A DNA stretch of 64,000 bases. Origin: Actinomyces oris (GTDB lineage: Bacteria; Actinomycetota; Actinomycetes; Actinomycetales; Actinomycetaceae). The notes beneath the pieces were generated by a model. That model saw only the letters and a program-made list of their open reading frames with translations. It was not told the DNA's origin and searched no databases. The DNA is taken from assembly GCF_001937665.1 (NCBI RefSeq), contig NZ_MSKL01000017.1:1-64000 (forward strand), in the 5' to 3' direction. Position numbers and translations under genes: made by a program. This document shows, in pieces, positions 2,568 through 44,716 of the stretch (within the stretch, counting starts at the first letter, position 1; every line of letters starts with the position of its first letter).

Positions 2568-2691
2568 GGTGTCCAAATCGGTGACAAAGGAGCTCCGGTG
2601 TCGCCAGGTCGGTAGAAGAAACGTTGGAATCGTGCGGTTTCTTCTTGTCGGTTCTGCCCCGTTCCAGGCCTTTGTCACCGATTTGGACACC
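2568..2691. repeat. Terminal-inverted-repeat element, copy 1 of 3
   Basis: A 124-bp unit bounded by perfect 23-bp inverted repeats that begin GGTGTCCAAATCGG. Inside is a conserved core resembling GGAATCGTGCGGTTTC. Related copies occur at 24755-24872 and 44597-44716, all with the core on the plus strand. No open frame is conserved inside. It looks like a small non-autonomous, MITE-like or REP-like element. This copy sits between two divergent genes. Confidence 0.8.
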
Positions 2692-2955: not shown

Positions 2956-4560
2956 ATGACCATCGACATGATCGTCGCACTCATTGGCGCCTCGATTATC
3001 GCCTACGCGATCGCCAACAGGTTCAGGCTCATCGCCCCAGTACTTCTCATCGCCGCGGGTGTGGGCGTCGCCCTGCTCCCGGTTGGGAAGGAGATGTACC
3101 TGCCCAGCACGGTGGTGCTCACGATGTTCCTGCCGATCCTCCTGTACTGGGAGTCGCTGTCAGTGTCCCTCAACCGCATGCGGAGAAGTCTGCGCGGCAT
3201 CATCCTCAGCGCCACGGTCCTTGTCGCCATCACGGCTGCCCTCATCACCCTCATCGGCGTCTTCACTGGGCTGAGCGTAGGAGCCGCTCTCCTCATCGGG
3301 GCCTGCCTCGGCCCCACTGATGCCACCGCCGTCTCCAGCCTGGGACGCGGCATCAACCCCAATAGCCGCACCATTCTTCAGGCCGAGTCGCTTCTCAACG
3401 ACGGCACGGCCCTGGTCATCTTCGCCATCGCCCTTCAGGCCGCGCAGGACTCCTCCGGTGTCACCGCGGGGCTCGTCGCACAGCAACTCCTCCTTTCTTT
3501 CGGGGGAGGAACTGGTGTAGGAGTCCTCGTCGGTGCAGTAGTCACGAAGATCGGCATCCGGGTCCGCACCATCACCGACGACCCCATGCTCGCGACGATC
3601 ACCGCCCTGGCCACCCCGTTCGTCACCTTCTTCCTCGCTGAAGAGGTTGGCGGCTCAGGCGTGCTCGCCGTCGTCACCTGCGGAATCGTCGTCTCCCGCT
3701 TCGCTGCCCCGCACCTGTCCCTGGGCTCACGAGTCCTCGGCATCCCGTTCTGGACGATCCTCACCCACATCCTCAACACCATTCTTTTCGTCATGGTGGG
3801 GGTGGAGCTCCCCGGTATCGTCGCTGAGCTACCCCGCGCTGATCTCATGCGCGGCCTCATCCTCATCCCCATCATCTACATCGCTATGGTGGCTGGGAGG
3901 TTCGGCGGGCAGCACCTCATGATCTACTCCATCCGTGCCCTTGACCGCCGTCCGGAGCAGCGCCTGCGACGCACCAATCTCCGTGGCCGCATCGTCTCCA
4001 CGGTTGCCGGCTTCCGAGGCGCGATCTCACTGGCGATGGCACTGTCCATCCCGGTCTCCTTCGACGGCACCGCCTACACCGAACGCAACCTCATCATCCT
4101 CGTCGTTGCCGGTGTGACTCTCCTGTCCCTCCTCATCCAGGGGGTCGCCCTGCCCTACGTGGTCCGCTGGGCTAACGCCAAGCCCTCGGCCGGGGCGCAG
4201 ACCGCTGAGTCAGTCGAGTCGCAGGAGACCGAGGCCCTCGCCGACATCCTCGCCGACACCATCAGTCAGCTCGATGCCATCGCAGAGCGCGCGGGCGTCG
4301 ACGACGCCGCAGCCATCGAGGCGGTGCGCGCCGATTACCGACGTCGCCACGAGTCCGTGCTCAATTCGGCCACAGAGGGTGAGGCGCGCGTCTACTGCGG
4401 CTCGGAGAGCACGCTGCGGCTCGCCGTTATCGAGCATCTGCGCGAGCGCATACACGGCCTGCGCTTCGCCAGCCGTATCGACGACTCCACCGCCTTCAAC
4501 GTCAACCGGCGCCTCGACGTTGAGACCCTCCACATCAACGGCCCCCTCGACGTCGAGTGA
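2956..4560 (+). CDS. Na+/H+ antiporter, CPA1/NhaP family
   Basis: A 534-residue polytopic membrane protein that should exchange cytoplasmic Na+ (or K+) for H+. Hydrophobic segments run from residue 5 to about 405. The CPA1 ion-site motifs are present: GPTDATAV at 119-126 and ESLLNDGTA at 144-152, with the Asp residues expected in the transport pathway. After the membrane domain comes a hydrophilic, acidic cytoplasmic tail of about 125 residues (Glu/Asp/Ala-rich from about 415), which in this family is often regulatory. A GGAAGGGA box lies somewhat far (about 12 nt) upstream of the ATG at 2956, so an internal ATG at 2968 is possible. The gene stands alone, diverges from the adhesin and ends at a strong bidirectional terminator. 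Whether it prefers Na+ or K+ cannot be told. Confidence 0.88.
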   Translation: MTIDMIVALIGASIIAYAIANRFRLIAPVLLIAAGVGVALLPVGKEMYLPSTVVLTMFLPILLYWESLSVSLNRMRRSLRGIILSATVLVAITAALITLIGVFTGLSVGAALLIGACLGPTDATAVSSLGRGINPNSRTILQAESLLNDGTALVIFAIALQAAQDSSGVTAGLVAQQLLLSFGGGTGVGVLVGAVVTKIGIRVRTITDDPMLATITALATPFVTFFLAEEVGGSGVLAVVTCGIVVSRFAAPHLSLGSRVLGIPFWTILTHILNTILFVMVGVELPGIVAELPRADLMRGLILIPIIYIAMVAGRFGGQHLMIYSIRALDRRPEQRLRRTNLRGRIVSTVAGFRGAISLAMALSIPVSFDGTAYTERNLIILVVAGVTLLSLLIQGVALPYVVRWANAKPSAGAQTAESVESQETEALADILADTISQLDAIAERAGVDDAAAIEAVRADYRRRHESVLNSATEGEARVYCGSESTLRLAVIEHLRERIHGLRFASRIDDSTAFNVNRRLDVETLHINGPLDVE

Positions 4561-24721: not shown

Positions 24722-24754
24722 CAACGCCAACGGAGGCGATCGCGGGGCAGGATG

Positions 24755-24872
24755 TCCAAATCGGTGACAAAGGACCCCCAGCACTCCTTGGCCGTCCAAG
24801 CAAACCGCGGAATCATGCGGTTTTCTTTCGTCAGTATGTGTCCGTTCCGAGCCTTTGTCTCCGATTTGGACA
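24755..24872. repeat. Terminal-inverted-repeat element, copy 2 of 3
   Basis: A 118-bp unit with 21-bp ends beginning TGTCCAAATCGGTGAC and one mismatch between ends. The internal hairpin CCGC-GGAATCAT-GCGG is followed by a T-rich TTTTCTTT, so this copy could act as a terminator. It lies between the convergent SMR and histidine kinase genes. Core orientation is plus, as in the other copies. Confidence 0.8.
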
Positions 24873-25081
24873 CGATCCCGCTCACTTCCTCCGCGGCTGG
24901 ACTGGCCGACCTGCCCTCGTGAGGGACGCGGCGTGGGCAGAAGGCTCTCCTGGCCGGGGACATTCGACATCGACGGGTGCAGTCCGCGCGTCCGGGGACA
25001 GGATGTGCGTCCCCGGACGCGTGACGTGTCCCCACTGGGCACCACCCGCACCTGGCCGCGCGGAATGCCCCCGCCGGTGCC

Positions 25082-44596: not shown

Positions 44597-44716
44597 TGTC
44601 CAAATCTGTGACAAAGGAGCTCCGAGGCCATTACTCCGCCGAAAGGAACCGCGGAATCATGCGGTTTTCTTTTCCGCAACTGAGGGTGATCGCGGCCTTT
44701 GTCACCGATATGGACA
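44597..44716. repeat. Terminal-inverted-repeat element, copy 3 of 3
   Basis: A 120-bp unit. The ends begin TGTCCAAATCTGTGAC and finish as the complement with two mismatches. It has the same CCGC-GGAATCAT-GCGG hairpin and TTTTCTTTT core as copy 2. It lies between two co-directional genes, 13 bp from the ABC permease stop. The right end is TATGGACA instead of TTTGGACA. Confidence 0.8.

Follow-up and report, generated by a model that had tools for sequence, protein, structure and literature searches.

The 120-bp palindromes described here are probably non-autonomous copies (satellites) of a two-part system that joins a nuclease to palindromes of its own; we put the chance of this at roughly two in three. 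At the level of sequence comparison, the pairing of palindromes and nuclease is well documented. The palindromes form a dispersed family with a fixed geometry, covarying arms and constraint on both arms and core; they flank the nuclease gene and co-evolve with it, and one site is solo in one genome and composite in others. Mobilization of the palindromes by the nuclease is what we infer from these observations.

The window, i.e. the whole stretch of 64,000 nucleotides that was analyzed, is part of a 3.12-Mb draft genome (G000) from the Actinomyces oris/naeslundii group. A palindromic element is present in it three times. Each copy measures exactly 120 bp, counted from TG to CA, and has a purine just before TG and a pyrimidine just after CA (Table 1). 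In the window the arm pattern has six occurrences, compared to 0 in 100 shuffles. The three copies were already recognized in the initial annotation and are real, as are the settings it gave for each of them, although its limits were 2 bp off for copies 1 and 2. To the right of copy 2, ~100 bp of sequence (24974-25074) belong to another dispersed repeat, with ~70-75% similarity to stretches adjacent to three further copies in the same genome (C7:100704, C7:106292, and C7:66472).

Table 1. Positions of the palindromic elements and their parts in the window
Feature	Position	Strand	Description
Element copy 1	2570..2689	+	120 bp, A-type arms TGTCCAAATCGGTGACAAAGG; divergent intergenic space
Copy 1 left arm	2570..2590	+	stem columns 1-21
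Copy 1 central conserved motif	2626..2637	+	GGAATCGTGCGG
Copy 1 right arm	2669..2689	-	stem columns 100-120
Element copy 2	24753..24872	+	convergent intergenic space
Copy 2 left arm	24753..24773	+	
Copy 2 central motif	24809..24820	+	GGAATCATGCGG
Copy 2 right arm	24852..24872	-	
Element copy 3	44597..44716	+	co-directional intergenic space
Copy 3 left arm	44597..44617	+	
Copy 3 central motif	44653..44664	+	GGAATCATGCGG
Copy 3 right arm	44696..44716	-	

The element consists of two 21-bp arms (TGTCC...GGACA) with strong compensatory change, two spacers, and a central 12-bp sequence, GGAATCATGCGG, that is conserved across diverse copies. For 135 pairs the arm-to-arm spacing is 100, for 19 it is 101, and no other value within 95-106 occurs; 31 diverse copies align without gaps over 120 columns. 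Between columns 1-21 and 100-120, 93.4% of cells are paired, and two-sided change is observed in 15 of the 21 pairs. For the whole structure the paired fraction is 90.7%, compared to 32-42% in slid controls; the four strongest pairs by mutual information, and most of the top twelve, obey i+j=121. The initial annotation described the core as an internal hairpin plus a T-run. This description does not extend to diverse copies: three of the six pairs of the core hairpin are broken, in 9, 11, and 13 of the 31 copies, and the T-run is not conserved, the conserved feature being the central sequence instead. The spacers are neither conserved in sequence nor paired, so that a full-length RNA hairpin was rejected; their length is nevertheless fixed. 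The stem contains 21 G-U versus 35 A-C combinations, i.e. no excess of G-U. Fixed spacer length, a conserved core sequence, and the lack of a G-U excess are expected of DNA-protein geometry rather than of RNA. The A-type copies, the tandem C10 pair excepted, have no directly adjoining flank sequence in common, and thus the unit is the element of 120-122 bp.

The number of copies per genome is high, as had been predicted from the window. In G000, a search with the arms yielded 18 clean copies, and covariance model R1 extended this set to at least 33 loci. Twenty of them are A-type, with arms TGTCCAAATC-G/T-G..., and 13 form the B group, which has the same length and a related centre; 11 of these 13 have arms TGTCCACAGCGCTGACATCA or a one-base variant. 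One more locus, C12:132236, was excluded as a chance half, since only one of the two arms matched there. The covariance-model search, which the initial annotation had proposed, also retrieved copies from related genomes: R1 has matches in 38 of 49 same-genus genomes, and R2, a model built from diverse copies, in 41 of 49. A second genus of the same family contains ~40 copies in G092 and ~27 in G093, nearly all exactly 120 bp long, with arms of their own (TGTCCAAATCCCGTCCAAACG) and the same centre. More than 100 copies are present in the same-genus genome G015. This genome also contains a ~533-bp multi-copy element (L144, L153-L157, and L160-L165; >95% identical) that ends in terminal repeats GAAGGTTATTC...GAATAACCTTC, has CCNGG-like insertion sites, with 3-bp duplications in several copies, and carries one complete 120-bp module plus a second that has decayed. 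At the B-type loci L133, L136, L138, L139, L140, L141, and L032 of G000, a dispersed intergenic repeat of another kind, GTGCAGTACGCACAACC...CTCGTGGAGTAGG, is found nearby, and the TGTCTCAGAAGTGAGGAGACA palindrome also clusters near B-type copies in this genome.

Each of the 33 G000 copies is either intergenic or located at the extreme 3' end of a gene, with 14 in convergent, 16 in co-directional, and 3 in divergent settings. Relative to co-directional neighbours, seven elements have the same and nine the opposite orientation, i.e. there is no bias. Thus, the plus-strand position of the core, reported from the window, holds for its three copies but not genome-wide. Among phage records, none contained the element, and the sole plasmid record with it was A. 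oris NZ_CP116225; an origin from phages or plasmids was therefore rejected. Two viral contigs have an arm-like match lacking a partner. The plasmid-labelled record (NZ_CP116225.1, A. oris WVU627) is 415 kb long, contains genes for anaerobic ribonucleotide reductase, catalase, and XPB helicase that are partly syntenic with chromosomal contigs, and may be a chromosomal fragment rather than a plasmid.

The initial annotation had suggested a MITE/REP family. If the elements were ordinary MITEs, surviving as remnants of a DDE insertion sequence that ended in TG...CA and supplied the transposase in trans, their high copy number, dispersal in intergenic space, and TG/CA-ended terminal inverted repeats would be explained. 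The many G015 copies carried within the 533-bp element, which has terminal repeats of its own and is accompanied by 3-bp duplications, would fit this explanation as well. It is nonetheless unlikely. No target-site duplication of 2-10 bp was observed at 42 independent sites, and the loci examined contained only 120-bp modules or truncated copies, with no insertion sequence having the same ends. Furthermore, length and central motif are both retained in diverged copies, which measure 120 or 121 bp; neither is needed for transposition that depends on the ends only. The arms, moreover, track a nuclease, as described below. Insertion into flanking hairpins was considered separately and rejected, since outside A. 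dentalis-type genomes the flanks are not complementary beyond chance.

Clustering of neighbouring genes revealed one gene family that recurs beside the elements in distant species. Its product is a protein of ~300 residues, annotated in A. oris as hypothetical, that has weak to moderate matches to Pfam MTES_1575 and DUF559. The match to PF18741 (E down to 8e-9) is just under the curated cut-off, whereas PF04480 scores 27.5 bits for one homologue and 21.8 for another (cut-off 20.6). The N-terminus weakly matches AbiEi models. Thirty-six homologues share the RSPlETlAR, GEVD, ElDG..H, and D-R-RDR motifs and a conserved E, as in Vsr-type PD-(D/E)XK nucleases (for the family context, see PMC3710099). 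A sequence search of PDB gave no match. An AlphaFold model of the nuclease, made with four close sequences, had a mean pLDDT of 36 and was not used, so the assignment of the partner as a putative Vsr/DUF559-type PD-(D/E)XK nuclease is based on the weak Pfam and PADLOC matches together with the conserved motifs.

In G000, an element lies on each side of the nuclease gene, and element sequence encodes the final codons of the gene. At locus L034 of the A. oris group (4130-4178) the left arm is read as the nuclease C-terminus, VSKSVTK..., and the same is seen near position 1500 of L427 in G020 (VSRSAAK...). Thus, the element supplies coding sequence.

A similar arrangement is observed in other genomes, from many oral and related bacteria. 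For the best nuclease homologue in each of 30 genomes, an element is adjacent in 29 cases and present on both sides in 20; further paralogues with 38-53% identity are flanked by elements too. When a uniform rule was applied, matched-arm palindromes were found on both sides of 28 of 50 nuclease loci, which include near orthologues and are not independent, and of none of 104 control genes drawn from the window and element-rich loci. In 19 of the 28 flanked loci, the nuclease is 34-58% identical to the reference. Paralogues that have no good 120-bp match possess their own matched pairs of palindromes, of 91/92, 124/124, 128/129, 140/146, and 134/124 bp. These distant paralogues (L503, L505, L506, L499, and L486) have other arms and lengths (91-146 bp), and in several of their palindromes GCGGAAT or a related sequence is retained at the centre. 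Arms are nearly identical between the two copies that flank a given nuclease gene, whereas the spacers of such pairs vary from identical (direct or inverted) to unrelated. A strong nuclease homologue (E below 1e-60) is present in 29 of 41 element-bearing and in none of eight element-free same-genus genomes, in counts that ignore phylogeny. Genomes G042, G013, G024, G009, and G050 contain many elements yet no strong homologue; hence copies can persist without one.

The presence of an equally matched copy at the 3' end of the nuclease gene argues against the palindromes being operators, through which an AbiEi-like regulator would control this gene and a regulon. Moreover, operators are unlike 120-bp sequences present in dozens to more than 100 copies, most solo copies are in convergent or co-directional rather than divergent settings, and no AbiEii toxin gene was found beside the nuclease at one annotated A. 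oris locus. What makes this explanation worth considering is the weak similarity of the nuclease to AbiEi and the position of the upstream element, mostly ~85-210 bp from the nuclease gene in two-sided loci; AbiEi antitoxins are described as binding to the inverted repeats of their own promoters (PMC7319586, PMC3985639). On balance, we consider it improbable.

The nuclease and its palindromes co-evolve. Across 36 loci, nuclease and arm identities are correlated (Mantel r 0.81, 0 of 2000 permutations), the coefficient being inflated by shared ancestry. Same-genome paralogues in G001 and G048 have a nuclease identity of 0.43-0.44 and an arm identity of 0.62, whereas for counterparts across these genomes (G001b/G048b) the values are 0.94 and 1.0, the arms being shared. 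Different arms within a genome and shared arms between genomes argue against arms simply tracking species. One syntenic site holds a solo element in G000 (C22:30247) and an element-nuclease-element arrangement in G001, G048, and G007, with outer flanks that align in all four genomes. The composites have one arm type in G001 and G048 and another in G007. The solo element of G000 partly shares its spacer with the left copy of G001/G048, and both of its arms are different.

A natural explanation is a homing-like process with two components. The palindrome, with its two mutually matching 21-bp arms, central 12-bp motif, and fixed spacing, would be recognized as a unit. The predicted nuclease, combining an AbiEi-like DNA-binding N-terminus with a Vsr/DUF559-type PD-(D/E)XK domain and encoded between two palindromes, would be cognate to its own arms. 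Perhaps as a dimer, it would bind the two matched arms and the centre and then cut DNA; repair would copy the element, or the element-gene-element unit, into the cut, resulting in spread and replacement. Copying by repair would leave no target duplication and would lead to re-use of sites, swapping of variants, and arms that evolve with the enzyme, and all of these are observed.

Comparison of orthologous sites demonstrates both turnover and constraint. The site of copy 2 is occupied in six other genomes (G010, G003, G048, G007, G045, and G001) and that of copy 3 in ten; in G011, the copy 3 site holds an unrelated variant in reverse orientation. At C22:26495, a different variant is present in G001 and the site is empty in G011. 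A clean empty site was encountered only once, with an ambiguous junction; G050, considered as an empty site for copy 2, was rejected as an imprecise deletion. As means over eight ortholog clusters with A. dentalis-type genomes left out, divergence is ~5% in arms and core, ~17% in spacers, and ~18% in flanks, so that change in arms and core is 3-4 times slower than in spacers or flanks. Since such conservation in place exceeds the needs of a dead satellite, it suggests an additional role of single copies or ongoing conversion.

The palindromes might instead be protective tags. The nuclease would attack DNA that either carries the palindrome or does not, with the copies in the genome acting as self marks in an addiction or defence system. 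A nuclease with many conserved cognate sites constrained in place is what this scenario would produce. However, it is hardly probable, given that copy number varies from few to more than 100, that copies persist in several genomes with no strong nuclease homologue, and that no defence-island context was seen at one annotated A. oris nuclease locus. Finally, the initial annotation envisaged built-in terminator activity or a structured regulatory RNA. A structured RNA or a bidirectional terminator is highly improbable: stable hairpins are predicted (z -4 to -8) and many copies lie at gene 3' ends, but the core hairpin and T-run are not conserved, the stem has no G-U excess, orientation is unbiased, divergent copies exist, and Rfam contains no curated covariance model that matches.

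Returning to the nuclease-palindrome system, we found no report of the element family in the open-access literature, in agreement with its initial description as an undescribed Actinomyces repeat family; with the search covering open-access papers, priority is not certain. The elements look like selfish or domesticated mobile DNA of a new kind. We lean towards regarding them as a new class of mobile DNA in Actinomycetaceae, in which a putative Vsr/DUF559-type nuclease and its cognate palindromes would spread by homing-like copying without target duplication, existing as solos and composites with lineage-specific length and arms.

Several known systems share some of these features. Bacterial MITEs and ERIC/Correia-type repeats are similar in size, terminal inverted repeats, and intergenic dispersal, but differ from the elements described here, which have strict geometry, a conserved centre, and a cognate nuclease, with no target-site duplication or parent insertion sequence found. 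The Vsr-like (EDxHD) homing endonucleases, which we take to belong to a nuclease superfamily related to that of the partner, resemble it in the predicted break-repair copying without duplication and in re-occupation of the same site. In our case, no intron or intein is involved, the unit is a multi-copy palindrome flanking the gene, and homing itself is inferred. The AbiEi type IV antitoxins bind inverted repeats and are weakly matched by the nuclease N-terminus; the nuclease differs in having a C-terminal nuclease domain and, in the annotated A. oris locus, no adjacent AbiEii.

Dispersed palindromes in bacteria usually have no known enzyme, REPIN/RAYT being the main exception. As in that system, in which REP doublets are combined with a REP-associated tyrosine transposase (PMC3116915), we observed a dispersed intergenic hairpin with two inverted conserved ends and a variable middle, a single enzyme gene beside copies, co-evolution of enzyme and repeat, and several distinct pairs per genome. 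The differences are a predicted Vsr/DUF559-type nuclease in place of an HUH Y1 transposase, and a fixed 120-bp length with a central motif, no GTAG-type tag having been identified. A RAYT/Y1 transposase was rejected as the partner because PF01797 had no match in 49 same-genus genomes, compared to 5 of 14 control genomes. As the defining transposase was looked for and not found, the element system is not a member of REPIN/RAYT; the initial comparison with REP sequences is apt for its behaviour but not for its enzyme. The best reading is that the nuclease-palindrome system is analogous to, rather than homologous with, REPIN/RAYT. A REPIN/RAYT-like arrangement, with a testable nuclease-arm code, appears to have evolved convergently around a second, unrelated class of enzyme. 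This would give a role to an uncharacterized nuclease family, account for many intergenic repeats in oral Actinomyces, and provide nucleases with natural cognate sites of ~20 bp.
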